Source of the DNA: Ruminococcus sp.
GTDB taxonomy: Bacteria > Bacillota > Clostridia > Oscillospirales > Ruminococcaceae
DNA: 64,000 nt
Direction of reading: 5' to 3'
Assembly (NCBI GenBank): GCA_017472145.1
Contig: JAFUQX010000044.1
Coordinates: forward strand, 36,648 to 100,647
This document shows, one piece after another, positions 28,217-45,893 of the stretch. Under the pieces are notes generated by a model that saw only the letters and a program-made list of their open reading frames with translations, was not told where the DNA came from and did no database searches. Position numbers and translations under genes: made by a program. How positions within the stretch are numbered: position 1 is the first letter of the stretch; every line of letters starts with the position of its first letter.

Positions 28217-29947
28217 TTATTCTACATCCAGAAGTGCATCAATACCTTCTTCACCGGTACGAACCTTAACCACATTCTCCACATCGTAAACGAATATCTT
28301 ACCGTCCCCGATATGACCCGTGTAAAGTACCTTCTTAGCAGTTTCAATCACTGTGCGTACAGGAACACTTCCTACTACGATATCAACCTGAATCTTCGGA
28401 AGCAGATTTGCTTCCACCTTAACGCCACGGTAATACTCAGGCTGACCCTTCTGAACACCGCATCCAAGAACATGAGATACAGTCATACCCGTAATACCAA
28501 TACTCATCATAGCGTTCTTCAGGGCTTCAAAGCGGGACTCCTTGCAGATGATCTCGATCTTTGTAAACTTCGGCGTTCCATCGTCAGCAGCATGCATCTT
28601 CTTTACAGGAACCGCATCTGTAACAGGTACATCACCCATAGGTTCGATCACACTGCCGTCCTCAGCATAATCAATACTTTCAACAGCCGGTGCAAAGTCA
28701 GGATATGCACGGTTGCCGTGTTCGCCGACATCAAGGCCGGCCATCTCTTCCTCACGCGTTACACGGATGCCGATGGTCTTCTTCAGCACCAGCCACAGAA
28801 TTGCAGATGCAGCGAATACAAATGCACCGACTGCAACAATACCCAGAAGCTGTGTACCGAGCAGTGCGAAACCGCCGCCGTAGAAGAGACCGTTTCTGGA
28901 AGAGAGCGTTGTTACGCCTTCCTTTGCAAACAGACCGATACAAATTGTGCCGAATACACCGCAGCAGAGATGAACAGAAGTCGCACCCACCGGATCATCA
29001 ACCTTGATGCGGTCAAAGAACAGTACCGCAAATACAACGATAACACCTGCAATCGCACCAATGATCAGAGAGTCAACGATGGAAATGTATGCACAGCCGC
29101 CGGTAATGGCAACCAGACCTGCAAGACAGCCGTTGATCGTCATGCCCAGATCCGGCTTGCCGATGAAGATCCAGGAAGCAATCGTCGATGTCAGTACAGC
29201 GGCAATTGCGGAAGTGTTGGTTGTCAGAAGGATATGCATTACATCTTCAGGGTTCTGGAAGCTCATTGTAGAGCCAGGGTTGAAACCGAACCAGCCGAGC
29301 CAGAGTACAAACAAACCGATCACGGCCAGAGACATGTTGTGTCCAGGAATGGCTCTGGGCTTGCCGTCCTTGCCATACTTACCAATACGAGGTCCAAGGA
29401 TCATTGCGCCTGCAAGCGCTGACCAGCCGCCGAGAGAATGAACAACAGTATCACCAGCAAAATCCATAAAGCCAAGATCGGCCAGCCAACCGCCGCCCCA
29501 AACCCAGTGACCAACGATCGGATAGATGAGCAATGTAAGTACAAATGAGAAAATGATGAAGGAAACATACTTGATCCTTTCAGCAACTGCACCGGAAACA
29601 ATGGTTGCAGCCGTTCCGCAGAACACCAGCTGGAAGAAGAACTTGCCCCAGAACGGTACGTTTGATGTAAGGGTTTCATCGTAGAACGAAAGATCTGCAT
29701 TTCCCAGAATGAACAGGTTCTCCGTACCGATGAAGGGATTGTCACCGCCGAACATCAGACCCCATCCCAGAAGCATGAAGCCCAGGGAGGAAACCGCAAA
29801 AACGATAAAGTTCTTTGAAAGAATGTTAACCGTATTCTTCGACCTTGCAAGGCCTGCTTCAAGAGACGCAAAGCCCAGGTTCATAAAGAATACCAGTATG
29901 GCTGCAAGAAACACCCATAGCGTATCAACGATCATCGTCAGTTCCAT
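28217..29947 (-). CDS. Ammonium transporter fused to a PII regulatory domain
   Basis: A 576-residue fusion. Residues 1-about 410 are an Amt channel with about eleven membrane segments; landmarks are LEAGLARSKNTVNIL, AERIKYVSF, DFAGDTVVHSLGGWSALAGA, FGFNPGS and DDPVGATSVHLCCGVFGT, which includes the pore histidines. After a charged linker of about 45 residues, residues about 460-576 form a PII (GlnK/GlnB) domain. Its T-loop is GCGVQKGQPEYYRGVKVEANLLPKI, split here only by its length, and it ends GHIGDGKIFVYDVENVVKVRTGEEG, both diagnostic of PII. In most bacteria GlnK is a separate protein that plugs Amt; here gate and channel are one chain. It lies 31 bases after glnN. Confidence 0.93.
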   Translation of the reverse strand: MELTMIVDTLWVFLAAILVFFMNLGFASLEAGLARSKNTVNILSKNFIVFAVSSLGFMLLGWGLMFGGDNPFIGTENLFILGNADLSFYDETLTSNVPFWGKFFFQLVFCGTAATIVSGAVAERIKYVSFIIFSFVLTLLIYPIVGHWVWGGGWLADLGFMDFAGDTVVHSLGGWSALAGAMILGPRIGKYGKDGKPRAIPGHNMSLAVIGLFVLWLGWFGFNPGSTMSFQNPEDVMHILLTTNTSAIAAVLTSTIASWIFIGKPDLGMTINGCLAGLVAITGGCAYISIVDSLIIGAIAGVIVVFAVLFFDRIKVDDPVGATSVHLCCGVFGTICIGLFAKEGVTTLSSRNGLFYGGGFALLGTQLLGIVAVGAFVFAASAILWLVLKKTIGIRVTREEEMAGLDVGEHGNRAYPDFAPAVESIDYAEDGSVIEPMGDVPVTDAVPVKKMHAADDGTPKFTKIEIICKESRFEALKNAMMSIGITGMTVSHVLGCGVQKGQPEYYRGVKVEANLLPKIQVDIVVGSVPVRTVIETAKKVLYTGHIGDGKIFVYDVENVVKVRTGEEGIDALLDVE

Positions 29948-29978: not shown

Positions 29979-32075
29979 TTATTTCACGCCGAAAAGCAGG
30001 TCGCCGTATGTGGGGAACGGCCAGTACTTCTTGGCGGTAACAACTTCCGCTTCGTCACAGGCCGCACGCAGCTCACTCATCTTAGTCAGCAGCGTGTCAC
30101 GGATCGCATTGGCCTGTGCGCCGATGTTCTCAGCGGAATCCAGACTCCGCAAAGCCTGCTCAAGCTCATCGGTCTTTACAGCAATTCTGTCTGTCAGTGT
30201 GGACAGCTTCTTTACCAGACCACTTTCGTAGCTGCAGGCAAGACCTGCATCCAGTGCCTTCTTTGCAGCAGCCGTCTTTGCAACATCCAGAGCGTAGCTT
30301 TCCACGGCCGGTGCAATTTCGGTTCTTGCCATATCCACCATCGTGCCGGCTTCAATCATAACAGCCTTGCAGTAGTTATCCAGCATGATCTCATATCTGG
30401 ACTTCAGCTCCGCTTCGGAAAATACCTTCTGAGAGGTGAGCATATCCACATTCTTCTGATCCAGCAGATGCGGCATGCAGTCCGGTGTGGTGCGGTAGTT
30501 GAGAAGTCCTCTCTGCTCGGTAGCTTCCTTGATCCATGCATCATCATAGCCGTTTCCGTTGAAGATGATCCGCTTGTGATCCTTGATGGTCTTGCGGATC
30601 ATTTCATGCAGTGTGGTTTCAAAGTCCTCGGCCTGCTCCAGTCTGTCCGCATAGATCCGCAGGCTTTCTGCAACCGCGCTGTTCAGCATAATGTTTGCAC
30701 AGGCGATGCTGTTGGAGGAACCCAGCATACGGAACTCAAACTTGTTGCCTGTAAAGGCAAAGGGAGAGGTACGGTTACGATCTGTTGTATCACGGTTGAA
30801 CTTCGGCAGCACATCTACGCCAAGCTTCATCTTGGTCTTGGCCGCAGCACTGTAGGGCTCATCCTTTTGGATGGCTTCAATGACTGCATTCAGCTCATCG
30901 CCCAGGAAGATGGATACAACGGCCGGCGGTGCTTCGTTTGCGCCCAGTCGGTGGTCATTTCCGGCGGTTGCAACAGAAATGCGGAGCAGATCCTGATAAT
31001 CGTCCACGGCCTTGATGACGGCACAGAGGAAAAGCAGGAACTGTGCGTTTTCATAAGGCGTTTCGCCCGGGGACAGGAGGTTTACGCCTGCATCGGTTGA
31101 AATGGACCAGTTATTGTGCTTGCCGCTGCCGTTTACACCTGCAAATGGCTTTTCATGGAGCAGGCATACCAAACCATGCTTTGCGGCAACCTTCTGCATG
31201 ATCTCCATAGTCAGCTGGTTGTGATCCGTCGCAATGTTGGTCGTTGTATAGATCGGAGCCAGCTCATGCTGTGCAGGAGCAACCTCGTTATGTTCCGTCT
31301 TTGCAAGAATGCCCAGCTTCCATAGCTCTTCATTCAGCTCCTGCATGTAGGCTTCTACCCGCGGCTTGATGACCCCGAAGTAATGATCATCCAGCTCCTG
31401 ACCCTTGGGCGGCTTTGCACCGAACAATGTACGTCCTGTGAAACGCAGGTCTCTGCGCTGGTCATACATTTCCTTGTCAACAAGGAAGTATTCCTGCTCC
31501 GGGCCAACAGATGTACGAACACACTTTACCGTGTCGTTTCCGAACAGCCGCAGAATTCGGATGGCCTGCTTGCTGAGCGCTTCCATAGAGCGGAGCAGAG
31601 GTGTCTTTTTATCCAGGGCCTCGCCGCCGTAGGAGCAGAATGCAGTAGGAATACACAGTGTCTTACCCTTGATGAATGCATATGAGGTGGGATCCCATGC
31701 GGTATATCCTCTGGCCTCGAATGTTGCTCTCAGTCCGCCGGAGGGGAAGGAGGAAGCATCCGGTTCGCCCTTGATCAGTTCCTTTCCCGAAAACTCCATG
31801 ATCACGCCGCCGTCCGGTGAGGGAGCAATAAAGCTGTCATGCTTTTCAGCCGTAATGCCTGTCAGGGGCTGAAACCAATGCGTGTAATGCGTCGCACCAT
31901 TTGCAATAGCCCAGTCCTTCATAGCCGTTGCTACGGCATTGGCCACGCTGATGTCCAGCTTTGCGCCTTCATCAATCGTCTTTTTCAGCGACTGATAGAC
32001 CTTTGCAGACAGATTTGCTTTCATCACTCTGTCGTCAAAGACCAGCTTTCCGAAATACGCAGATACAGTTCCCAT
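29979..32075 (-). CDS. glnN: Type III glutamine synthetase
   Basis: A 698-residue enzyme, the length of the GSIII class of Bacteroides and ruminococci and far longer than GlnA. Landmarks are [31 protein letters not shown], spanned here as [10 protein letters not shown] and [12 protein letters not shown], with [10 protein letters not shown], the [14 protein letters not shown] substrate region and the ATP-side NWSISTD and LGANEAPPA. It assimilates ammonia into glutamine. I start at the ATG at 32075 with AAAGGAG eight bases upstream, not at the overlapping GTG nine bases earlier. It is the first gene of the leftward nitrogen operon and sits behind a leader with two putative antiterminator/terminator units. 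Confidence 0.95.
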
Positions 32076-32100
32076 AATAAACACTCCTTTGGGGATTGAT

Positions 32101-32155
32101 AAATAAAAAAGGCAAGGGGACCCCGATGAAAAAACACCAAAGACGCCCTTGCCTT
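32101..32155 (-). promoter_or_regulatory. glnN-proximal ANTAR-type hexaloop/terminator switch
   Basis: Read on the minus strand, AAGGC and GTCTT (32155-32151 and 32144-32140) form a stem around the hexaloop AAGGGC, with A at position 1 and G at position 4 as in ANTAR-bound RNA hairpins. The same 5' bases, AAGGCAAGGG, can instead pair with CCCTTGCCTT (32117-32108) followed by a T run, making an intrinsic terminator. The two folds exclude each other. A second A1/G4 hexaloop, present in characterised ANTAR targets, is not clear here; the loop interior offers only a weak GGTG-T6-CATC hairpin. Confidence 0.7.
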
Positions 32156-32177
32156 ATTATTATATTGAATGATTCTG

Positions 32178-32220
32178 CTGCTGAATATCCATACAACATT
32201 GCTGTCCTTCAGCAGGATAT
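32178..32220 (-). other. Alternative inverted repeats in the glnN leader
   Basis: Between the two switch units lie nested dyads: CTGCTGAA at 32178-32185 with TTCAGCAG at 32208-32215, ATATCC at 32185-32190 with GGATAT at 32215-32220, and a small TGCTG/CAGCA hairpin at 32200-32214. They overlap and cannot all form at once. I know of no RNA family that fits. Confidence 0.45.
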
Positions 32221-32243
32221 GCTTTTATCCGTCTTTACCGGAT

Positions 32244-32302
32244 AAAAAAGAAAAGACAAAAACTCCTTCAAGGATTCACCTCAAAGACGCCTTTGCCTTT
32301 TC
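32244..32302 (-). promoter_or_regulatory. Promoter-proximal ANTAR-type hexaloop/terminator switch
   Basis: On the minus strand AAAGGC and GTCTTT (32300-32295 and 32288-32283) enclose the hexaloop AAAGGC, again with A1 and G4. The overlapping 5' arm GAAAAGGCAAAGG (32302-32290) can pair with TTTTTGTCTTTTC (32262-32250), which is followed by a run of six T. The unit begins only a few bases after the predicted transcription start, so it would be the first decision point on the glnN transcript. Confidence 0.7.
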
Positions 32303-32310
32303 TGATTTGC

Positions 32311-32339
32311 ATTATACACCCTCCGAATCGATTTGTCAA
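32311..32339 (-). promoter_or_regulatory. Promoter of the glnN operon
   Basis: On the minus strand a perfect TTGACA (32339-32334), 17 bases and a perfect TATAAT (32316-32311). It is back to back with the equally strong promoter of the glutamate synthase arm. Such a consensus promoter ahead of terminators suggests control mainly after initiation. Confidence 0.88.
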
Positions 32340-32389
32340 CCCCTTTTTCCAATTTTTCCAAAAAAAATTTGAAACCATGAATTTTGGTA

Positions 32390-32418
32390 TTGACAAATGA
32401 GGAAATGCGTAGTATAAT
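32390..32418 (+). promoter_or_regulatory. Promoter of the glutamate synthase-glnA-ANTAR arm
   Basis: A perfect TTGACA at 32390-32395, 17 bases and a perfect TATAAT at 32413-32418. Transcription should begin near 32425, exactly where the first leader hairpin starts. Confidence 0.88.
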
Positions 32419-32424
32419 ACAGAC

Positions 32425-32492
32425 AAATGAGCAAGGGCGTTCATTTCAAAGCAGATCTTATGTCTGTTCTGAAATGAGCGCTCTTCTTTTTT
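32425..32492 (+). promoter_or_regulatory. ANTAR-type hexaloop/terminator switch of the glutamate synthase arm
   Basis: AAATGAGC and GTTCATTT (32425-32432 and 32439-32446) form an eight-pair stem around the hexaloop AAGGGC, which has A1 and G4. Its 3' arm is also the 5' arm of an intrinsic terminator: GGGCGTTCATTTCA (32435-32448) pairs with TGAAATGAGCGCTC (32470-32483) through 14 pairs including two G-T wobbles, then TTCTTTTTT. Formation of the first hairpin must break the terminator. The loop interior holds only a short CAGA/TCTG hairpin, so the second hexaloop known from other ANTAR targets is not evident. The last gene of this same transcript encodes an ANTAR protein. Confidence 0.78.
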
Positions 32493-32567
32493 ACATACCG
32501 GCAGAAGTATATGCAGTTTTTTCTATCGGTATGCGCTTTAAAATTTTCCGAAAGGAAGGAAACCCAT

Positions 32568-33659
32568 ATGAAATTAGAAGGTCAGGTGCGAATCCCATCC
32601 GGATGTGCCATTGCAGCCGTTATTTCAAAAGACGGAAACAGGATGTCCGGCGAAATGATTACCAAGGCCATGAGGCCCATGCACGACCGCTCCAACGGAC
32701 TGGGCGGCGGATTTGCAGGTTACGGTATCTATCCGGAATACAAGGACTTTTATGCCTTGCACTTATTCTATGACAGCCGGGACACCCGCAAAAGCTGTGA
32801 GGTATTCTTAAAAGAACGTTTCGAAATCGTGAAATCCGAAATGATTCCCACCCGGAAGATTCCGGCTATCACAGATGAGCCGATGATCTGGAGATATTTT
32901 GTAGCTCCCCTGAGATCCGTTTTGGCCTCTCTCCAGCTGGATGAAAAGGAATTCGTTGCAAGAACGGTTATGAAGATCAACACCGAAATGCATGGGGCCT
33001 ATGTATTCTCCAGCGGAAAGAATATGGGCTCATTCAAGGCTGTGGGCTTCCCGGAGGATGTAGGCGTCTTTTATAAATTAGAAGAATACCAGGGCTATTC
33101 CTGGACGGCTCATGGACGCTATCCTACCAATACACCCGGCTGGTGGGGCGGTGCACATCCGTTCACACTTCTGGACTATTCCATTGTTCATAACGGTGAG
33201 ATTTCCTCCTATGATGCAAACCGCCGTTTCATGGAGATGTTTGGTTATAAATGCACCCTCCAGACCGATACAGAGGTAATTACTTATATTATGGATTACC
33301 TGATCCGTGTGCAGGGCCTTACACTGGAGGAAGCTGCAAGCGTCATTGCCGCCCCCTTCTGGAGCACCATTGCGGCCAAGGATGAGGAGGAGCGCAAAAA
33401 GCTCACCTATCTTCGCACGGTATACTCAAGCTTGCTGGTAACCGGTCCGTTTTCCATTGTGCTCGGATTCAGCGGCGGACTCATGGCCCTGAATGACCGT
33501 CTGAAGCTGAGATCTATGGTTGTGGGTGAAAAGGCGGATCAGGTATTTATCGCCAGTGAGGAAGCGGCCATCCGGACAATGGAGCCGGATGCAGAAAATA
33601 TCTATGCTCCGGCCGGCGGCGAACCGGTAATTATCAGAGTAAAGGACGGTGCATACTGA
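32568..33659 (+). CDS. Glutamate synthase-type class II glutamine amidotransferase subunit
   Basis: A 363-residue Ntn-type glutaminase domain corresponding to the N-terminal domain of GltB in split, archaeal-type glutamate synthases. It should release ammonia from glutamine for the FMN subunit encoded next. Landmarks are SGCAIAAVIS near the N-terminus, GRYPTNTPGWWGGAHPFTLLDYSIVHNGEISSYDANR (read as separate pieces GRYPTNTPGWWGGAHPF and SIVHNGEISSYDANR) and QTDTEVITYIMDYL. The ATG at 32568 has AAGGAAGGA eight bases upstream. The catalytic Cys is internal to the encoded N-terminus, as in this subfamily, not residue 2. The stop overlaps the next start by one base (TGATG). Confidence 0.88.
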   Translation: MKLEGQVRIPSGCAIAAVISKDGNRMSGEMITKAMRPMHDRSNGLGGGFAGYGIYPEYKDFYALHLFYDSRDTRKSCEVFLKERFEIVKSEMIPTRKIPAITDEPMIWRYFVAPLRSVLASLQLDEKEFVARTVMKINTEMHGAYVFSSGKNMGSFKAVGFPEDVGVFYKLEEYQGYSWTAHGRYPTNTPGWWGGAHPFTLLDYSIVHNGEISSYDANRRFMEMFGYKCTLQTDTEVITYIMDYLIRVQGLTLEEAASVIAAPFWSTIAAKDEEERKKLTYLRTVYSSLLVTGPFSIVLGFSGGLMALNDRLKLRSMVVGEKADQVFIASEEAAIRTMEPDAENIYAPAGGEPVIIRVKDGAY

Positions 33660-35164
33660 TGAGTATAGAATTTGTATACCCTGAATTTGAAGTTATCAGA
33701 AACGACAGCCGCTGTATTGGATGCAGAGTTTGTGAGCGGCAGTGTGCAAATGAAGTACACAGCTTTGATGCACAGTGCGGCCTGATGCAGAGCGATGAAG
33801 CCAGATGTGTAAACTGTCAGCGGTGTGTTTCTCTTTGTCCCACCAGAGCCATTAAGATCGTAAAGAGCGATTGTGTGCTTCGTGAAAATGCCAACTGGAA
33901 AAATGATACCATCAAGGAAATCTACAAGCAGGCTGGCAGCGGCGGTGTTCTTCTTTCTTCCATGGGCAATCCCAATCCCCTTCCTGTGTACTGGGATAAA
34001 ATCCTGATCAATGCATCACAGGTAACCAATCCGCCCATCGATCCCCTGAGAGAGCCGATGGAAACCAAGGTTTTCCTGGGAAAGAAGCCGGAAAGACTCA
34101 GCCGGGATGAAAATGGAAATCTGAAATGTGATCTCTCCCCTCAGCTGGAGCTTTCCATGCCGGTGATGTTTTCCGCTATGAGCTATGGCTCTATCAGCTA
34201 TAACGCTCATGAATCCCTGGCCAGAGCGGCCACAGAGCTGGGTATTTTCTACAACACCGGCGAAGGCGGACTTCACGAGGACTTCTACTGCTACGGTGAA
34301 AATACCATCGTTCAGGTGGCATCGGGACGATTCGGTGTTTATAAGGATTATCTGGAAGCAGGCGCAGCAGTGGAAATCAAAATGGGTCAGGGCGCAAAGC
34401 CCGGTATCGGCGGACATCTGCCCGGTGCAAAAATCGTAGGTGACGTTTCCCGTACACGAATGATTCCGAAAGGCTCGGATGCGATCTCACCTGCACCTCA
34501 TCATGATATTTACTCCATCGAGGATCTTCGTCAGCTGGTATTCTCTTTGAAGGAAGCAACCGAATATAAGAAGCCTGTGATCGTAAAGGTCGCTGCTGTC
34601 CATAACATTGCTGCGATCGCAAGCGGTATTGCACGAAGCGGAGCGGATATTATTGCCATTGACGGCTTCAGGGGCGGCACAGGTGCAGCACCCACCAGAA
34701 TCCGTGACAATGTGGGCATTCCGATCGAGCTTGCGCTCGCATCCGTTGATCAGCGGCTTCGTGATGAAGGGATCCGAAACAATGTTTCACTCGTAGCAGG
34801 CGGCAGTATCCGGAGTGCAGCAGATGTGGTAAAGGCCATTGCACTGGGCGCAGATGCCTGCTATATAGCAACGGCGGCCCTGCTGGCTATGGGCTGTCAT
34901 CTCTGCCGTACCTGCCAGAGCGGCAAGTGCAACTGGGGTATTGCGACTCAGCGTCCGGAGCTGGTAAAGCGTCTCAATCCGGATGTGGGCTGTGAGCGTC
35001 TTGTGAATCTGATGAATGCATGGCGGCATGAAATCAAGGAGCTGATGGGTGGAATGGGTATCAATTCCATTGAATCCCTCAGAGGAAACCGTCTGATGCT
35101 GCGTGGAATCGGGCTGAGTGAAAAAGAGCTTGAGATTCTGGGGATATCTCATGCCGGTGAATAA
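33659..35164 (+). CDS. Glutamate synthase FMN/Fe-S subunit
   Basis: A 501-residue protein. Residues about 15-75 carry two 4Fe-4S ferredoxin motifs (CIGCRVCERQC and CVNCQRCVSLC). Residues about 90-500 are the FMN-binding TIM barrel of GltB, with FSAMSYGSISYNAHESLARA, YNTGEGGLHEDF, EIKMGQGAKPGIGGHLPG, IDGFRGGTGAAPTRI, and the 3Fe-4S-type cysteine segment MGCHLCRTCQSGKCNWGI. It joins ammonia to 2-oxoglutarate and reduces the imine to glutamate. The architecture is that of archaeal-type split glutamate synthase, with electrons arriving through ferredoxin-like centres. Confidence 0.92.
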   Translation: MSIEFVYPEFEVIRNDSRCIGCRVCERQCANEVHSFDAQCGLMQSDEARCVNCQRCVSLCPTRAIKIVKSDCVLRENANWKNDTIKEIYKQAGSGGVLLSSMGNPNPLPVYWDKILINASQVTNPPIDPLREPMETKVFLGKKPERLSRDENGNLKCDLSPQLELSMPVMFSAMSYGSISYNAHESLARAATELGIFYNTGEGGLHEDFYCYGENTIVQVASGRFGVYKDYLEAGAAVEIKMGQGAKPGIGGHLPGAKIVGDVSRTRMIPKGSDAISPAPHHDIYSIEDLRQLVFSLKEATEYKKPVIVKVAAVHNIAAIASGIARSGADIIAIDGFRGGTGAAPTRIRDNVGIPIELALASVDQRLRDEGIRNNVSLVAGGSIRSAADVVKAIALGADACYIATAALLAMGCHLCRTCQSGKCNWGIATQRPELVKRLNPDVGCERLVNLMNAWRHEIKELMGGMGINSIESLRGNRLMLRGIGLSEKELEILGISHAGE

Positions 35165-35175
35165 GGAGGCGTCGT

Positions 35176-35604
35176 ATGAAACGAATATACGTGAATGAGC
35201 AGTGGTGTCTGGGCTGTCATCTGTGCGAATATAACTGTGCCTTTGCAAACTCCGGAGAGACAAATATGGCAAAGGCCCTCAAGGGTAAGCCGATTTTCCC
35301 AAGAATCCGCGTGGATGGAGACGAAAGCATAAATTTTGCCGTTTCCTGCCGCCACTGCAAGGAGCCTCTCTGTGTGAAAAGCTGTATTTCCGGTGCGTTA
35401 TCCTCCAAGGACGGTGCGATATGCATCGACCATAACAAGTGTGTGGGATGTCTGACCTGTATTCTGGTTTGTCCCTATGGTGCACTTTCTCAGGGAGAAC
35501 ACGGCGCTGTACAGAAATGTGAGCTGTGTCTGGAGAATTCCTGCGGCGAACCGGCTTGTGTAAAGGGATGTCCCAACAGGGCCATTGTATATGAGGAGAG
35601 GTGA
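35176..35604 (+). CDS. Four-cluster ferredoxin-type electron transfer subunit
   Basis: A 142-residue iron-sulphur protein of the HycB/DmsB type with four cysteine groups: CLGCHLCEYNC, CRHCKEPLCVKSC, CVGCLTCILVC and CELCLENSCGEPACVKGC. It has no signal peptide, so it should be cytoplasmic. It lies between the FMN subunit and the FAD oxidoreductase of the glutamate synthase cluster, so it most likely wires reductant to the synthase. GGAGG precedes the start. Confidence 0.88.
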   Translation: MKRIYVNEQWCLGCHLCEYNCAFANSGETNMAKALKGKPIFPRIRVDGDESINFAVSCRHCKEPLCVKSCISGALSSKDGAICIDHNKCVGCLTCILVCPYGALSQGEHGAVQKCELCLENSCGEPACVKGCPNRAIVYEER

Positions 35605-35611
35605 GCATTTC

Positions 35612-36859
35612 ATGAAACAGTATGTGATTATCGGAAACGGTGTGGCAGCGGCTGGATGCATTGAAGGCATCCGCAGTGCAGACAGTGAAAGCAGGATCGT
35701 TGTTATATCAGAGGAAAAGCATCCGGTCTACTGCCGCCCGCTGATTTCCTATTATCTGGAAGGAAAGACTGATCTCCAGAAAATGAAATACCGCAGGGAT
35801 GACTATTATGAGAAAATGGGCTGTGAAGTACTTTATGGGAAAAAAGCTGTGAAGATCGATAAGGATGCCAAAACCGTCATTCTGGAGGACGGCCCGGCGA
35901 TTCCGTATGATGCGGTATGTGTTGCAGCAGGCTCCGCTCCCTTTGTTCCGCCCCTGGCCGGATTGGAAAGCGTGAAAAACAAATTTTCCTTTATGACGAT
36001 CGATGATACGCTGGCGCTCGAAGCAGCGGTCACTCCGGATTCAAGCGTGCTGATCATCGGGGCCGGTCTGATCGGTCTGAAGTGTGCTGAAGGACTGAAG
36101 GAAAGAGTGGCGGACATCACAGTCTGTGATCTTGCGGACCGTGTGCTGTCCAGCATTCTGGATACCGAATGCGCATCCATGATGCAGAAGCATCTGGAAC
36201 AAAATGGAATCCGGTTTCTGCTGGGAGACAGCGCAGAGCGATTTGAAGGCAATACGGCCTTTATGAAAAGCGGCAGAACCGTTTCATTCGATGTCCTTGT
36301 ACTGGCGGTAGGCGTGCGGGCCAATACGACTCTGGTCAGCGATGCAGGCGGACAGGTAAATCGCGGCATCCTTGTCAGCGAGCACATGGAAACCACCATT
36401 CCCGATGTATATGCGGCCGGGGACTGCACGGAGGGAGAGGATATCTCTTTTGGACAGAAAAGAGTGCTGGCCATCCTGCCGAATGCGTATATGCAGGGTC
36501 AATGTGCAGGCGTCAATATGGCCGGCGGTGAAGCGGCTTTTGACAAAGCCATCCCTATGAACTCCATCGGATTCTTTGGTATGCATGCAATGACGGCTGG
36601 CAGCTATTTCGGTGAAAACGAGGGCGGTGCGCTGTATGAGGAGAAAACGGAGAACACGCTGAAAAGATTGTTTACCCGAAACGGTCTGCTCACTGGATTC
36701 ATTCTGATCGGCCATACCGATCGGGCCGGTATCTATACCGCTCTCATCCGGGAAAAAACGCCGCTCGATGCTGTGAATTTTGAGCTGCTGAAGAAAAATA
36801 CGACCCTTGCAGCTTTTTCTCGTGAAAGCCGCATAAATAAGCTTGGAGGTGCAGTATAA
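35612..36859 (+). CDS. FAD-dependent NAD(P)H oxidoreductase of the glutamate synthase cluster
   Basis: A 415-residue pyridine nucleotide-disulphide oxidoreductase of the NirB/rubredoxin reductase type. The FAD site is YVIIGNGVAAAGCIEGI, the NAD(P)H site VLIIGAGLIGLKCAEGL, and the second FAD motif PDVYAAGDCTEG. I start at the ATG at 35612 with GAGGAGAGG upstream, eight bases after the ferredoxin stop. It takes the place of GltD as the entry point for reducing power. No redox-active CxxC is evident in the expected position. Confidence 0.85.
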   Translation: MKQYVIIGNGVAAAGCIEGIRSADSESRIVVISEEKHPVYCRPLISYYLEGKTDLQKMKYRRDDYYEKMGCEVLYGKKAVKIDKDAKTVILEDGPAIPYDAVCVAAGSAPFVPPLAGLESVKNKFSFMTIDDTLALEAAVTPDSSVLIIGAGLIGLKCAEGLKERVADITVCDLADRVLSSILDTECASMMQKHLEQNGIRFLLGDSAERFEGNTAFMKSGRTVSFDVLVLAVGVRANTTLVSDAGGQVNRGILVSEHMETTIPDVYAAGDCTEGEDISFGQKRVLAILPNAYMQGQCAGVNMAGGEAAFDKAIPMNSIGFFGMHAMTAGSYFGENEGGALYEEKTENTLKRLFTRNGLLTGFILIGHTDRAGIYTALIREKTPLDAVNFELLKKNTTLAAFSRESRINKLGGAV

Positions 36860-36863
36860 TATT

Positions 36864-37583
36864 ATGTTGATCGATGTAAGCAGTCTTGATTACAAGACTT
36901 TGAATGATTTGCTCCGTGAAACGAAGGAGGACTGTATCCTTAGCGGATGCTGCGGCCAGCGGTTTATTGCTGCTGGCATGTCTGAGCGTTCCATCACCAT
37001 TGATGGTGTTCCTGGGAATGCGCTGGGAGCCTATCTGAACGGAGCTTCCATCACAGTCCGTGCCAATACACAGGATGCTGTAGGCGATACCATGAACGAA
37101 GGTGAGATCATCATTCATGGAAACATCGGAGATGCCGCCGGATACGCCATGCGCGGCGGAAAAATTTATGTCAAGGGAAACGCAGGCTATCGAGCCGGGA
37201 TCCACATGAAGCAGTATAAGGAAAAGATCCCGGTTCTCGTGATCGGCGGCACAGCCGGCAGCTTTCTCGGAGAATATCAGGCCGGCGGTGTCATTGTCGT
37301 TCTCGGACTGGAGTCCAATGGACAGCGCATTGTGGGAAATTTCCCCTGCACCGGCATGCATGGCGGCAAAATGTTCCTGAGAGGAGATTGCAGCCACATA
37401 GAATTCCCCTGCCAGGTCACTGCAAGAGCGGCAGCAGCAGAGGATATTGAGGAAATCAGAAAATATGTATCGGAATACTGCGCACGGTTCGGATATGATA
37501 CAGAAGAAGTGATGCATGCACCTTTCACGGTGGTGACTCCCGACAGCAAAAATCCATACAAGCAGATGTATGTGGCGAACTGA
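36864..37583 (+). CDS. Glutamate synthase GXGXG-domain subunit
   Basis: A 239-residue protein made of the GltB C-terminal right-handed beta-helix with the repeated G-x-G pattern: GVPGNALGAYLNGASITV, NTQDAVGDTMNEGEIIIHG, GNIGDAAGYAMRGGKIYVKG and GGTAGSFLGEYQAGGVIVVLG. In GltB this domain positions the other modules. The ATG at 36864 is chosen, although GGAGG lies about 14 bases upstream, so a GTG at 36849 is possible. It is the last part of the split glutamate synthase. Confidence 0.85.
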   Translation: MLIDVSSLDYKTLNDLLRETKEDCILSGCCGQRFIAAGMSERSITIDGVPGNALGAYLNGASITVRANTQDAVGDTMNEGEIIIHGNIGDAAGYAMRGGKIYVKGNAGYRAGIHMKQYKEKIPVLVIGGTAGSFLGEYQAGGVIVVLGLESNGQRIVGNFPCTGMHGGKMFLRGDCSHIEFPCQVTARAAAAEDIEEIRKYVSEYCARFGYDTEEVMHAPFTVVTPDSKNPYKQMYVAN

Positions 37584-37596
37584 AAGAAGGTGAATT

Positions 37597-38808
37597 ATGA
37601 AATACTCAAAAGAGGAGGTCAAGCAGTTCATTCAGGAGGCGGATGTCAAGTTTATCCGCCTGGCCTTCTGTGACGTATTCGGCCGGCAGAAGAATATATC
37701 CATTATGCCGGAGGAGCTTTCACGTGCTTTTCAGGAAGGCATTGCCATTGATGGCTCTGCAATCGTGGGCTTCGGGGACGAAACACATTCCGATCTGCTG
37801 CTGCATCCGGATGCAGAAACGATCATGCTGCTCCCATGGAGACCGGAGCACGGCCGTGTCGTTCGCATGTTCTGCAATATCACCTACCCCGATGGTTCCC
37901 CGTTTGAATGCGATACGCGCAGCCTTCTGAAAAAAGCGATCAAAGACGCAGAAAGGGCAGGCCTGCATTTTTCCTTCGGCGCAGAACAGGAGTTTTATCT
38001 TTTCAAGCTCGATGCAGAGGGCGAGCCTACCTGTGTCCCCTATGATAAAGCGGGCTATATGGACATTGCACCGGAGGACAAAGGGGAAAACATTCGCCGT
38101 GAAATCTGCCTGACACTTGAACAGATGGGCATCTCCCCTGAAAGCTCCCATCATGAGGAAGGCCCGGGGCAGAACGAGATCGATTTTCGCTATTCCGATC
38201 CGCTTACAGCCGCCGATAATGCAGTCACTTTCCAGACCGTTGTAAAAACAGTCGCGCAGCGGAACGGACTTCATGCAGATTTCAGCCCCAAGCCCCTGAA
38301 GGATAAGCCCGGAAACGGCTTCCATATCAATATGTCCGTAAAAGCAGCAGATGGCGGCGATCATCTCTATTGCATGATCGCAGGAATTCTCGACAAAATT
38401 CAGGACATGACAGCATTCCTGAATCCGACAGACAGCTCCTATGAGCGATTCGGAAGCAACAAAGCACCAGGATATGTTTCCTGGTCAAGCCAGAACCGCT
38501 CTCAGCTTGTGCGCATTCCTGCGGCCGAGGGGAAGTACCGTCGTGCAGAGCTTCGGTCTCCTGATCCAACGGCCAATCCCTATCTTGCATTCACCCTCAT
38601 GATTTATGCGGGACTGTACGGAATTCAGAGCAAGCCGGAATTGCCTCCGGCCGCAGATATAAATCTTTACAAAGCAGATAAGGAAACGCTTGCAGGCTTC
38701 CGGAAACTTCCGCAAAATCTGAAAGAAGCATGCGCAATTGCAGCTGAAAGCAGCTTCATCAAAGAGCATATACCGGATGCGATCCTTGACATCTACTGTA
38801 ACCAATAA
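37597..38808 (+). CDS. glnA: Glutamine synthetase, GlnA type
   Basis: A 403-residue class I-like glutamine synthetase, shorter than the usual 440-470 residues. Landmarks are VKFIRLAFCDVFGRQKNISI, the metal/ATP segment FGAEQEFYLF, GPGQNEIDFRYSDPLTAADN, GNGFHINMS, the NPTDSSYERFGSNKAPGY flap, and the substrate site RAELRSPDPTANPYLAF. The Tyr adenylylation site of enteric enzymes is not apparent. The window thus encodes two unrelated glutamine synthetases, this one and GlnN, under linked control. It lies 13 bases after the glutamate synthase genes. Confidence 0.94.
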   Translation: MKYSKEEVKQFIQEADVKFIRLAFCDVFGRQKNISIMPEELSRAFQEGIAIDGSAIVGFGDETHSDLLLHPDAETIMLLPWRPEHGRVVRMFCNITYPDGSPFECDTRSLLKKAIKDAERAGLHFSFGAEQEFYLFKLDAEGEPTCVPYDKAGYMDIAPEDKGENIRREICLTLEQMGISPESSHHEEGPGQNEIDFRYSDPLTAADNAVTFQTVVKTVAQRNGLHADFSPKPLKDKPGNGFHINMSVKAADGGDHLYCMIAGILDKIQDMTAFLNPTDSSYERFGSNKAPGYVSWSSQNRSQLVRIPAAEGKYRRAELRSPDPTANPYLAFTLMIYAGLYGIQSKPELPPAADINLYKADKETLAGFRKLPQNLKEACAIAAESSFIKEHIPDAILDIYCNQ

Positions 38809-38840: not shown

Positions 38841-39425
38841 ATGAGCCTGAAAGAACAGGTATACAGCATTCTTGTTGTATCTGCAGCAGACAGCTTTAAC
38901 TCCGCTTTGACAGCAATGCTCCCCAGATCAAAATATGACCCGATCCAGACGGTTTCCAATGTCAGTACAGCCAAAAGAGCCCTGGCCGACAGAGTCTATG
39001 ATTTTATTCTTATCAATTCTCCCCTGCCGGATGACTCTGGTACACATTTTGCTATAGATACCTCGGTCTCCAAAGAAACCGTGGTTCTGCTCTTTGTAAG
39101 AAACGATGTGCAGGATGAGATTTTTGACAGAGTAGCAGAATATGGCGTATTCACTCTGCCCAAGCCTGTACCCAAGCAGACCATGAGCCAGGCCCTTCGC
39201 TGGATGACCACAGCCAGAGAACGGCTTCGCAAATCTGAAAAGAAAACGCTGTCCATTGAAGAAAAAATGGAGGAGATCCGTCTTGTAAACCGTGCAAAGC
39301 TGCTGCTGATCAGTGAACTGAAAATGAGTGAGCCGGACGCTCATCGTTACATACAAAAGGAAGCGATGGACAGATGTATCTCCCGCAAAGAAGCAGCAGA
39401 GCACATTATTATCACCTACTCATAA
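38841..39425 (+). CDS. ANTAR-domain RNA-binding response regulator
   Basis: A 194-residue protein. Residues about 8-115 are a degenerate receiver domain: YSILVVSAADSFNSAL, VYDFILINSPLPDDSG and the LPKPV strand are present, but the acidic pocket is incomplete. Residues about 130-190 are an ANTAR domain of three helices (EIRLVNRAKLLLISELKMSE, then DAHRYIQKEAMDRCISRKEA). ANTAR domains bind hexaloop hairpins in nascent RNA and prevent terminator formation. Such hairpins occur in the leader of this same operon and twice in the divergent glnN leader, so the protein is a strong candidate controller of both. The signal it reads is unknown; no partner kinase is encoded here. Confidence 0.9.
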   Translation: MSLKEQVYSILVVSAADSFNSALTAMLPRSKYDPIQTVSNVSTAKRALADRVYDFILINSPLPDDSGTHFAIDTSVSKETVVLLFVRNDVQDEIFDRVAEYGVFTLPKPVPKQTMSQALRWMTTARERLRKSEKKTLSIEEKMEEIRLVNRAKLLLISELKMSEPDAHRYIQKEAMDRCISRKEAAEHIIITYS

Positions 39426-42941: not shown

Positions 42942-45893
42942 TTACCCTGCAAGCTCCTTCTTTATCAGACACAGATCAAATATATCGATCCGGCCATTGC
43001 TGTTGATATCCGCAGCCTGCATATCAGCCAAAGTTACACCCGGTACAGCGGCCAGCCATTTCTGAATCAACACCAGATCCAGAATCGTCAGGCGGCCGTC
43101 TTCATTGACATCCCCCACAACCTCAGCAGGTGTGGTTTCTGTAGTCGTAACAGTGGTGGTAACAGGAGTCGTGGTTGTGGTTGTCGTAGTCGTTGTGGCC
43201 TCAGGCGTTGTGGAGGTTGTAGTCGTTGTTGTAGTCGTTGTTGTGGTAGTGGTGGTAGTCGTAGTCGTTGTTGTTGTGGTGGTTGTGGTGGTCGTGGTGG
43301 TCGTGGTGGTCGTGGTGGTCGTGGTTGTCTCCGTCTGAATATTCCACTTCTGACAGTTATTGTTGGTAGGCTCCCACTGCTGAACATTTGCGCCAGCCTC
43401 TAACGATGCATAACCGACTTCAACAAGGCCTGCATCCTTGGAGGCATGGGTAATGATGCTGTATGAACCATCCAGGTTCTTGCTGAAACGGAAAAGCTGT
43501 GCGCTGTCCTTGGAGCTATATGCTACAATATCAATATTGCTGCCATTTTGGCTGCCCTCGGCCTTGAGTGCATAGGCCGGATCCAGATAGGAGCGGATCC
43601 AGTAGTAGTTGCCTGAACCAAAGGCCTTGAGCGTCCACTTCTGACAACTATGACCGCTGAAGCCCCACTGCTGTACATTGGAGTTATCCTCCATAACAGC
43701 ACCGGCTACCTCCATTACAAGGCCGGAATTTACATTCTCAAAGGTATAGATAACGCTCAGATCCATAGCCGTACCAGGATCTGTTACAGGCTCCAGGATC
43801 CAGTCCTGACAGTTTGCACCATTGATCTCCCACTGCTGTACATTTGCACCGGACGCTGCGGAAGCATCGGCCACCTCTACAGCAGAGGCCTCCCCGCTGA
43901 TCCTTGTACGGATCTTGTAGCTGCCGTCCCCATTAGAAGTCAGCATAAACTGCTGATTTGTACCTCCGTTGTACTGATAAATATCGATATTGGTACCGTT
44001 GGCTGTCTTTTTGCCCGCTACATCCAATACATATGTACCGCCGTCCCCTACGCAGGACGCAATATAATAGTAGCCGTCCCCTGCGCTGTAGAGCTTCCAG
44101 ATATCATGAACAGAAGTGCCGTCTGTGCCCCACTGCTGTACGTTTGCACCGTTTTCAGCCGCTGCACTGGCCACCTGCATATACAGACCAGAATTTACAT
44201 TCTTAATGCGATAAGCCGAACCCTCTGTAAAGGTGGCAGCAACAGGAGCGCTGGGCCCTTCTGTATAGCCTGCACTGGGCACGCCCTTGTTTGCATAGCG
44301 CAGATACATCCAGTTACCGCCGGAGGTCTGACGGCCGCTGTAATTGGAACAGTATGTCTTTGCATTTGCAGCGGTCAGTGAAACATAGGTGTAGTTGTTC
44401 TTCGGTCTCCATGAGCTTGCGCTTGAAGTGGCATTGGAATCAGCACCTTGCTGAGTTCTTCCGCAGCCTGAGAAGGTCGAACCGGATTCCGCATATGCAC
44501 CGGGATATGTTACACTATTCCAGTCACAGATCACATTTCCGCCGTTTTCATAGACACAGTTCTCAGCATAAACATCACATCCGCTGTGAACGGTATAAGC
44601 CATACTGAAATCGTTTACATAGTTATTGAGAGAATGGAAATAACCCCAGCGCATAAGTCCCGGGCCGCGCGTTTCTGTCTGATAGAATTTGTTGCCGATA
44701 ATAGACATGCGCGGGAAACCGTCATAGCCATTCTTTGAATTTGCATCGTCTGCCGGATAACCCAGGATCAGACCGTACTTGTGTGCGCCAAAGGAGCTGT
44801 CAGAAACGGTACAGTAATCGGCATCATAACAGCAGGCCAGGAACTTATCCTCGTCTACCTGTCCGGTCTGAGGAGCATATCCGAAATTATCATGACCCGT
44901 GAATGTAACATGGTCTACCCAGATATTCTGACCAGAGCCAAAATAGCATACGATGGAGTCATTGTTGTTGGATTCCGCATCATGCTGCATATCAAAGTTC
45001 TTGATGATGATGTTGTTCCCTGTGCCGCTGTTGGATGATGTACAGAACTGTACATTGAACAGGGTATTGGCAGAATAGCTGCCGATGATGGTCTTGTTGC
45101 TGTGGACATAGATACGGCCTGCTGTACACATATAACGTGTGCCGTTCATGTTCAGCTCTGTTACGCTGATATTCTTTGTTACAACAATGGTATAAGGGGT
45201 ATCGGAGGTCGCATACTTCTTCAGATCATCAAAAGTAGAGACCTCTACAACCTCACCAAACAGACCGCCGATATCAGCCGCTTTAACGCTGCCGGTGTTA
45301 TCATCCTTACAATAGCCTGCAAAGCCCTGTAAACCGTCTGCATTCAGCAGCCAGAGCTGATTATCTGCACCGGTGTAGCTTTCAAGGGTCATACCCGATG
45401 CGCTCTGGGTCAGTGCAAGAGATGTATTGGAATAGTTTACGATCTTGTAGTGAAGAGAATTGCCCAAACGATCGGTAGATACCGGAACAACATACCAATG
45501 CTGGGACTGCGCCGACTCACTGCCGTACATGATCACACTGGCTCCGGCTGATACATTGTAATTCAGCGGCGTAAGAAGACGTCCGGACTGAGCGTTGACA
45601 AGCTTGAAGAAGGTGCCTTTTGAGTCTGAACCGACACGATCAAACCGCCATGAAGGGGAAAGATCATTGCCAAGGGCCTTCACAGACAGCGAAGCGCCAT
45701 CGGTTGTTCCGTTCTCAGTCAACACCTTTGAATTATCCTTGGTTGCAATGTTCATCAGCTGCACCGGATAGTCCACAGAGGCCGCTGCTGCGGAAAGAGT
45801 CATACTACTGCTGCCGAACAATGGGAGCATCCATGTGGTCAGCAAAACAAGGGACAGGATGATCGCCTGTCGAATGCGCTTGAAATGTTTCAT
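42942..45893 (-). CDS. Secreted pectate lyase (PL1-like) with ricin-type modules and dockerin
   Basis: A 983-residue secreted enzyme. A signal peptide spans about 1-38 and a ricin/CBM13-like module about 40-185 (QSQHWYVVPVS, DNQLWLLNADG). A PL1-like beta-helix spans about 215-520, with the lyase hallmark IWVDHVTFTGH, the acidic calcium region and RGPGLMRWGYFHSLNNY near the expected catalytic arginine. Two further ricin-type modules at about 555-695 and 705-845 each show NSGL-M-V and QQW repeats. A nearly pure poly-Thr linker (about 853-905) and a dockerin (about 922-983; GDVNEDGRLTILDLVLIQ, ADINSNGRIDIFDLCLIK) follow. It should cleave pectate by beta-elimination while attached to a scaffoldin. 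Confidence 0.9.
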   Translation of the reverse strand: MKHFKRIRQAIILSLVLLTTWMLPLFGSSSMTLSAAAASVDYPVQLMNIATKDNSKVLTENGTTDGASLSVKALGNDLSPSWRFDRVGSDSKGTFFKLVNAQSGRLLTPLNYNVSAGASVIMYGSESAQSQHWYVVPVSTDRLGNSLHYKIVNYSNTSLALTQSASGMTLESYTGADNQLWLLNADGLQGFAGYCKDDNTGSVKAADIGGLFGEVVEVSTFDDLKKYATSDTPYTIVVTKNISVTELNMNGTRYMCTAGRIYVHSNKTIIGSYSANTLFNVQFCTSSNSGTGNNIIIKNFDMQHDAESNNNDSIVCYFGSGQNIWVDHVTFTGHDNFGYAPQTGQVDEDKFLACCYDADYCTVSDSSFGAHKYGLILGYPADDANSKNGYDGFPRMSIIGNKFYQTETRGPGLMRWGYFHSLNNYVNDFSMAYTVHSGCDVYAENCVYENGGNVICDWNSVTYPGAYAESGSTFSGCGRTQQGADSNATSSASSWRPKNNYTYVSLTAANAKTYCSNYSGRQTSGGNWMYLRYANKGVPSAGYTEGPSAPVAATFTEGSAYRIKNVNSGLYMQVASAAAENGANVQQWGTDGTSVHDIWKLYSAGDGYYYIASCVGDGGTYVLDVAGKKTANGTNIDIYQYNGGTNQQFMLTSNGDGSYKIRTRISGEASAVEVADASAASGANVQQWEINGANCQDWILEPVTDPGTAMDLSVIYTFENVNSGLVMEVAGAVMEDNSNVQQWGFSGHSCQKWTLKAFGSGNYYWIRSYLDPAYALKAEGSQNGSNIDIVAYSSKDSAQLFRFSKNLDGSYSIITHASKDAGLVEVGYASLEAGANVQQWEPTNNNCQKWNIQTETTTTTTTTTTTTTTTTTTTTTTTTTTTTTTTTTTTTTTSTTPEATTTTTTTTTTPVTTTVTTTETTPAEVVGDVNEDGRLTILDLVLIQKWLAAVPGVTLADMQAADINSNGRIDIFDLCLIKKELAG

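Follow-up and report, generated by a model that had tools for sequence, protein, structure and literature searches.

We found that glnN and the glutamate synthase (glt) operon of a Ruminococcus genome diverge from two promoters, and that each promoter is followed by a hairpin with a six-base A1/G4 loop that shares bases with an intrinsic terminator. Each arm is very likely a transcription attenuator with one ANTAR hexaloop, the predicted target of the ANTAR protein whose gene closes the glt operon. That one such hexaloop at the 5' end of a transcript is enough for ANTAR antitermination, with a code between residue 179 of the protein and the second closing pair of the stem that insulates two circuits in one cell, we judge to be an even call.

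The window, the whole 64,000-nucleotide stretch that we analyzed, is part of contig C13 of a 2.5-Mb draft genome. In the intergenic region, glnN on the minus strand diverges from a split glutamate synthase-glnA-ANTAR operon on the plus strand, and the two promoters stand back to back (Table 1). As the first-pass annotation had said, an ANTAR gene is the final gene of the rightward operon. N-terminal to its ANTAR domain is a receiver-like domain that scored under the Pfam cut-off. We set the start of the first rightward gene at the ATG after GAAAGGAAGG. The glutamate synthase (32568-37583) is spread over five genes, with a separate ferredoxin and NAD-dependent oxidoreductase, and the same order occurs in many related loci. 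The ammonium transporter-PII fusion beside glnN could be the system's nitrogen sensor. Elsewhere in the window, 42942-45893 encodes a predicted 983-residue protein with a run of about 40 threonines before a dockerin-like C-terminal end (seen by eye), and it adjoins two more proteins with similar C-terminal ends.

Table 1. Features of the glnN-glt region in window coordinates
Feature	Position	Strand	Details
Ammonium transporter fused to PII domain, single reading frame beside glnN	28217..29947	minus	Ammonium_transp + P-II
glnN, type III glutamine synthetase (GSIII)	29979..32084	minus	GSIII_N + Gln-synt_C; true start probably near 32075
Second glnN-leader terminator, overlaps second hairpin	32103..32155	minus	-27.2 kcal/mol, z -5.8; CCTTTTTTAT tail
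Second, internal glnN-leader hexaloop hairpin AAGGC[AAGGGC]GTCTT	32140..32155	minus	loop 32150-32145
First glnN-leader terminator, overlaps first hairpin	32244..32302	minus	-28.2 kcal/mol, z -6.1; U-tract 32249-32244
First glnN-leader hexaloop hairpin AAAGGC[AAAGGC]GTCTTT	32283..32300	minus	loop 32294-32289
Sigma-A type promoter of glnN operon	32311..32339	minus	TTGACA-17-TATAAT, 12/12 consensus
Sigma-A type promoter of glt-glnA-ANTAR operon	32390..32418	plus	TTGACA-17-TATAAT, 12/12 consensus
glt-leader hexaloop hairpin AAATGAGC[AAGGGC]GTTCATTT	32425..32446	plus	loop 32433-32438, second closing pair G.U
glt-leader intrinsic terminator with U-tract, overlaps hairpin	32429..32493	plus	fold -32.9 kcal/mol, z -7.7
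Glutamate synthase amidotransferase-type subunit, rightward operon gene 1	32568..33659	plus	GATase_2
Split glutamate synthase: FMN/4Fe-4S core, ferredoxin, NAD-oxidoreductase, C-terminal-type subunit	33659..37583	plus	
glnA, type I glutamine synthetase	37597..38808	plus	Gln-synt_C E 2.7e-89
ANTAR regulator with pseudo-receiver, Asn59 at phospho-Asp site, Cys179	38841..39425	plus	Pfam ANTAR E 2.2e-14; alignment to 6wsh

The first-pass annotation had described two perfect sigma-A promoters firing in opposite directions and three A1/G4 hexaloop hairpins that share bases with overlapping terminators. Both promoters match the consensus at every position, and the hairpins lie where it had placed them. 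We computed the folds and found that each hairpin and a strong terminator (-27 to -33 kcal/mol) exclude one another; for all three terminators, 0 of 200 shuffles were as stable in full-leader folds. It had also claimed that a hairpin opens each transcript. This fits the predicted transcript starts for glt and for the first glnN hairpin, but the third hairpin is internal, 144 nt beyond the first one of the glnN leader. A search of the window against Rfam gave 0 matches above gathering score; the four sub-threshold matches in 32040-32580 were all far below their cut-offs.

We propose the following model. Polymerase would start at the strong promoter, and the first 18 to 22 nt of RNA would fold into a hairpin whose loop, AANGRN, is closed by C-G and then by G.U. 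Left unbound, the hairpin would lose the 3' half of its loop and its 3' arm to invading downstream sequence, which would form a strong intrinsic terminator. Under nitrogen scarcity, the presumed signal, the ANTAR protein from the end of the glt operon would bind and clamp the hexaloop, and the terminator would be blocked. Blocking would let polymerase read through into glt-glnA-ANTAR and glnN; on the glnN side, there would be two such gates in series.

We used 20 aligned ANTAR proteins to scan species genomes and took the best 80 loci. Among these best 80, the named loci closest by ANTAR protein carry the labels Ruminococcus, Lachnospiraceae, Oscillospiraceae, and other Clostridia. When L113 was added, there were 49 loci in which the GSIII start was intact and faced the start of glt or glnA, which with the window made 50 regions. 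We found at least one glnN-side hexaloop in 50/50 regions. Two lay no more than 150 nt apart in 32/50 (62 to 144 nt, the window's 144 being the longest), which bears out the two stacked switches that had been described on this side; in 4 of the remaining regions, two hexaloops are separated by about 1.4 kb, and the other 14 regions have a single one. A right-side hexaloop within 250 nt of the gene was present in 39/50 regions overall. Where glt is the right gene, the count was 37/41, with L036, L058, L061, and L111 lacking one by this rule; the elements of L058 and L061 are 2.6 kb from glt and were excluded as glt leaders. Where glnA is the right gene, it was 2/9. In L044, L049, L065, L068, L071, L078, and L110, the right arm starts directly with glnA-ANTAR, and the right-arm hexaloop is usually missing from such arms; therefore, the regulator there is not gated by its own switch. 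We also counted A1/G4 six-base-loop hairpins in 41 homologous intergenic regions shorter than 700 nt, window included, and in 20 shuffles. The glnN strand had 60 (shuffle mean, 1.15; maximum, 3) and the glt strand had 32 (shuffle mean, 0.8; maximum, 3), that is, about 40 to 50 times more than in shuffles.

The leaders appear from their sequences to be single-hexaloop attenuators, unlike the dual motif needed by EutV, whose antitermination is described as requiring both hexaloops (PMC3369931, PMC8934654). On the glt side, 33/41 elements have a promoter scoring at least 10/12 whose -10 ends 13 to 15 nt before the loop. The same holds for 33/36 first glnN elements, at 14 to 18 nt. Transcription generally starts about 7 nt after the -10, and the 5' arm of the stem would therefore be the first RNA made, so that no upstream hairpin fits. 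A promoter of this score was found for 7/14 single glnN elements and for 0/38 second elements. Because of this last count, we took a TATAAT that abuts the window's second glnN hairpin as chance and rejected it as a promoter. Downstream, the columns up to the terminator arm have a mean majority of 0.64 to 0.68, versus 0.93 to 0.97 within the hairpin; they are conserved as pairs, not as sequence, and the glt apical part has no invariant column. Within 40 nt on either side of the elements, a further ANNGNN hexaloop with three Watson-Crick pairs occurred in 5/258 flanks, compared with about 7.5 in shuffles. The first-pass remark that a clear second hexaloop is lacking thus agrees with both the flank counts and the poor conservation downstream.

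These leaders might instead hold the usual dual-hexaloop ANTAR motif, with a second loop that drifted past recognition. Two hairpins are the published rule, and EutV is described as needing both (PMC3369931, PMC8934654). A strict rule for a dual hexaloop with a U-tract found 0 in the 50 intergenic regions, but it also found no clean pair in its positive control, the eut operon of the distant relative G242, and therefore a degenerate second loop would be missed. In that eut-like operon (named by eye), L221 1865-2165 and 5230-5450 have A1/G4 hexaloops and no clean second one. A degenerate second loop is argued against by the promoter-loop geometry, which leaves no room upstream, and also by the weakly conserved downstream columns and the chance-level flank loops. 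We consider a drifted dual motif improbable and favor the single hexaloop.

We carried out the covariance analysis of homologous regions that the first-pass annotation had proposed, and found that the stems are conserved and that both hairpin and terminator covary. The 129 elements used (107 distinct) were chosen for their loop and closing pair and, for glnN-side elements, also for GTC, and they are constant at these places by construction. When stems were instead picked by letters alone (GAGC/GTTC or GGC/GTC), A1, A2, and G4 were present in 125/126 loops. With no more than A1, G4, stem length, and terminator fixed, elements of the close group, defined by ANTAR proteins close to the window's, had A2 in 137/139 and a C-G closing pair in 135/139, and elements of the diverged group had C-G in 29/33. 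Three stem pairs swap whole (AU/GC/UA) from ATGAGC/GTTCAT in the glt class to AAAGGC/GTCTTT in the glnN class. Cells with a double change numbered 141 in the stems of the 129 elements versus 63 in shuffles, 51 versus 14.1 in the glnN-type terminator (36 rows), and 92 versus 28.5 in the 24-pair helix of the glt terminator (31 rows), with shuffles that do not correct for relatedness. Sliding the terminator partner by 1 to 3 columns lowered the paired cells from 96 or 91% to 34 to 62%. Stems of the diverged group covary fully, with 100% pairing over 27 rows. By a strict U-tract rule, 107/129 elements have an overlapping terminator, 9 have no tract, and 13 have no overlap. At least the window's second glnN element fails this rule through a mis-set tract, because direct folding shows the overlap.

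The loop itself bears on whether these are plain terminators, of which the hexaloop is merely a part, or sites of leader-peptide attenuation. The 3' arm of the terminator and loop positions 3, 5, and 6 vary together, and positions 1, 2, and 4 do not follow that arm; therefore, what the terminator needs can be separated from what the loop reader needs. Terminator pairing leaves the constancy of A1, A2, and G4 unexplained, and a plain terminator does not account for the link to an ANTAR residue described below. An ATG does occur within the first 20 nt of 37/41 glt-side elements. However, it has no room for a ribosome site, its frames run from 1 to 48 codons with little Gln or Glu, and it is missing from most glnN elements (present in 10/36, 7/38, and 3/14). 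We rejected leader-peptide attenuation on these grounds and regard either explanation as very improbable beside a loop read by an ANTAR protein.

We aligned the window's ANTAR protein with EutV (6wsh) and found that His168 corresponds to Tyr164, Met176 to Met172, Arg147 to Lys143, Arg151 to Lys147, and position 179 to Arg175. In 35/35 aligned close proteins, window included, the phospho-Asp site at position 59 is Asn and position 14 is Ser, and the domain is therefore a pseudo-receiver, like that of AmiR. The phospho-acceptor Asp of an EutV-type receiver was absent from all 35. A receiver without this Asp makes it probable that a partner protein controls the window's ANTAR, as AmiC does AmiR. 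Our guess at a candidate partner is the PII domain or a glutamine synthetase.

As a planned negative control, we used 25 relatives without an ANTAR match of at least 160 bits to the window's protein, in which no hexaloop upstream of GSIII was expected. GSIII was present in 25/25. We read 30 of their GSIII upstream regions (gene starts are approximate) and found a hexaloop in 10 by a strict rule and in 15 by eye, with none by eye in the other 15. These elements have the same loop on other stems, for example, ACAGC/GCTGT or GAAAC/GTTTC. R1, our search for the G.U type, had matched in 17/20 genomes with a window-type ANTAR of at least 160 bits and in 4/128 others. We withdrew this as presence/absence proof; it reflects stem class, because other genomes have the same loop on another stem. 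Diverged ANTARs mostly retain this gene neighborhood: in stretches fetched for them, GSIII and ANTAR occurred together in 20/40.

The difference between the two groups lies in the second closing pair. In a scan of 81 close-group loci that set no filter on this pair, 60 of them with elements, the second pair was G.U in 131/135 elements. The other four were two that resemble opposite-strand terminator images, one unrelated loop, and one real A-U, in L071. In contrast, G.U was found in 0/26 diverged-group elements, which had 13 A-U and 13 G-C pairs (40 stretches scanned, 20 with elements and 20 with none). The glt hairpins of the two groups are typically one base apart, ATGAGC versus ATGAAC. The proteins differ correspondingly at residue 179, which is Cys in 80/81 close proteins and Arg in 35/35 diverged ones. 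Position 179 was picked beforehand from sequence alone, and it corresponds to EutV Arg175, a published stem contact. The close group was gathered partly through peptide patterns that cover around 146-154 and 167-175; residues 150 and 154 were left out as evidence for this reason, and residue 179 is outside the patterns.

A later test set comprised stretches of 16 further genomes (G043, G113, and 14 from other families of the class), together with G228 and G237. Arg179 occurred with A-U or G-C in G043, G244, and G259, and Cys or Ser179 occurred with G.U in G187, G215, G260, G261, G150, G228, and G154. With Gly179, G237 had G.U in 2/3 elements and G-C in the other, and G113 and G223 were mixed. 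The ANTAR loci of G153, G247, G240, G158, and G245 had no element by the scan rule. G150, G244, and G259 contributed one element each, with promoter scores of 8, 11, and 9 of 12. On a tree with 93 element-bearing tips, we compared Arg or non-Arg at residue 179 with a Watson-Crick or G.U majority at the second pair. The two agreed in 89/89 untied tips; the four ties were L071 (Ser179), L109, G113, and G223. We computed three changes each for residue and pair, on the same branches: a 63-tip clade, G150 plus G228, and G237. When labels were shuffled on the tree 500 times, at least 14 changes were needed, versus the 3 observed. Of all 194 positions, 179 alone sorts the tips without error, and the next best misses 1. 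Elements far from an ANTAR gene obey the same rule (L154, L155, and L172 to L174), as does G140, in which the glnN and glt elements are on another contig than glnA-ANTAR. We had also entertained a dimer that bridges two divergent nascent RNAs; this is not needed, because the elements of G140 are on two contigs.

Shared ancestry rather than recognition might produce such a match, which we think possible but unlikely. The tree is approximate, only three co-changes were inferred on it, and 63/66 G.U tips belong to one clade. Against this, the three branches coincide and include that of the G237 protein, which is only 26% identical. In addition, G043 and G259 lie inside the smallest clade that holds all Cys179 proteins and have Arg with Watson-Crick pairs, and a residue chosen by sequence alone turned out to be a published stem contact. 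In EutV, Arg175 is described as bonding to hexaloop-stem riboses, and a protein with the three changes N173A/R175A/R177A no longer binds (PMC8934654). The closing pairs of eutP are given as A27-U36 and C28-G35 (PMC3369931); Arg175 with these pairs is as the residue-179 rule predicts. The authors read the Arg175 stem contact as independent of stem sequence (PMC8934654). Our comparisons suggest that the contact at residue 179 may sense pair geometry.

The window's own genome encodes two ANTAR-domain proteins, and the assignment of elements to the window's ANTAR is for this reason inferred. At E of 5 or less, R1 gave nine matches in this genome: the three window elements (E of 5.1e-5 or less), five in or overlapping reading frames, and one before asnA (13.8 bits). 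Several R1 matches were dropped because they lie inside reading frames or have no promoter or terminator, judged by context with no preset rule. The pattern GCAARGGCG was too unspecific as an own-genome search (95 matches versus 58 reversed). For R2, a search derived from 27 elements found in other genomes, the asnA element was the best match in this genome (25.7 bits, E 0.012). This element (L122 1454-1557; G000:C24 near 16450) comes with a perfect promoter and a terminator that folds at -26.7 kcal/mol, and its second pair is A-U; asnA encodes aspartate-ammonia ligase. The second ANTAR (G000:C33; L113 9671-11768) has Arg179 and is encoded behind its own diverged glnA-like gene, whose leader has a promoter-like sequence; no hexaloop was found in this leader. 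From these features, the second ANTAR may serve asnA.

That the window's hexaloops are read by this second ANTAR or by another RNA-binding protein seems to us quite unlikely. The cell does encode the second ANTAR, and G035, G079, and G184 have elements although no ANTAR was found there. However, the second ANTAR has Arg179, which goes with Watson-Crick stems, and the window's elements are G.U. The contigs of G035 and G184 end within or just before the operon expected to hold the ANTAR; G079, which is 88% complete and has two elements, has no such explanation. The operon's own ANTAR thus remains the favored reader. In relatives, we found a hexaloop and terminator, mostly with a promoter (by eye), before pyrG (L155, L173, and L174), carA (L154), glutamate dehydrogenase (L172), a class IV aminotransferase (L166), and the glnA-ANTAR operons L160, L175, and L176. 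The first-pass annotation had proposed a hub in which one regulator, made from one arm, opens both arms through a one-hairpin rule. Covariation, constant A1/G4, the kept divergent layout, and the residue-179 co-change speak for it. Two parts have to be amended: the regulon exceeds two arms, and autoregulation is not universal, because so few glnA-first regions have a right-arm hexaloop.

Previous work described NitR, an ANTAR protein of Clostridium saccharobutylicum that antiterminates GS/GOGAT under nitrogen limitation (Stutz et al. 2007, as described in PMC6316151). In the gene order of the loci that we compared, an ANTAR gene stands next to glnA/glt, the synteny expected of a NitR regulon. 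A similar cluster is reported for C. thermocellum (PMC4676874). Beside the NitR cluster as described in PMC6316151, we report here the glnN arm with its stacked gates, the single hexaloop at the predicted transcript start, and the residue/pair rule. That an ANTAR protein controls GS/GOGAT in clostridia is already known; the one-hairpin form and the residue-179/pair rule appear to be new. In a literature search with subscription papers mostly outside its coverage, we found no report of single-hexaloop ANTAR attenuators in Clostridia or of a residue/pair rule. PAL, a light-regulated ANTAR protein, reportedly binds a single selected hairpin in vitro.

The EutV/EutW-controlled eut leaders of Enterococcus faecalis are described with the same A1/G4 hexaloop, C-G closing pair, and exclusion of hairpin and terminator (PMC3369931, PMC8934654), and the EutV contact positions reported in PMC8934654 match the window's ANTAR (Met172 at 176 and Arg175 at 179). 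In contrast to the window's one 5'-end hexaloop and pseudo-receiver, the EutV system is described with two hexaloops, a short linker, and a phosphorylated receiver (PMC3369931, PMC8934654). AmiR of Pseudomonas aeruginosa (1qo0) is, like the window's protein, described as a pseudo-receiver joined to ANTAR (PMC8934654), and our alignment shows His at its Tyr164 position as well. AmiR acts on the amidase operon with AmiC, whereas the window's protein would act on nitrogen assimilation with another partner. Two-hairpin searches have already listed ANTAR RNAs in front of nitrogen genes (PMC3369931, PMC8164766). In Desulfotomaculum and others, such RNAs precede genes for glutamate/glutamine synthase, PII, and ammonium transporters; they come from a two-hairpin model that was not built to list single hexaloops (PMC3369931). 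The role of single-hexaloop sites is left open in PMC8934654.

These leaders would be a large natural family of apparent single-hexaloop attenuators overlapping the terminators in front of the main genes for ammonia assimilation in gut Clostridia, under a current model that requires two hexaloops and with two-hairpin search models not built to list such sites. The match between residue 179 and the second pair offers a simple hypothesis for how ANTAR proteins discriminate targets, with contrasting natural pairs, two of them within one genome. If the code is true, Arg with a Watson-Crick second pair and Cys, Ser, or Gly with G.U would keep ANTAR regulons apart. In this Ruminococcus, the Cys179 protein would then serve the G.U gates of glt and glnN, and the Arg179 protein would serve the A-U gate of asnA.
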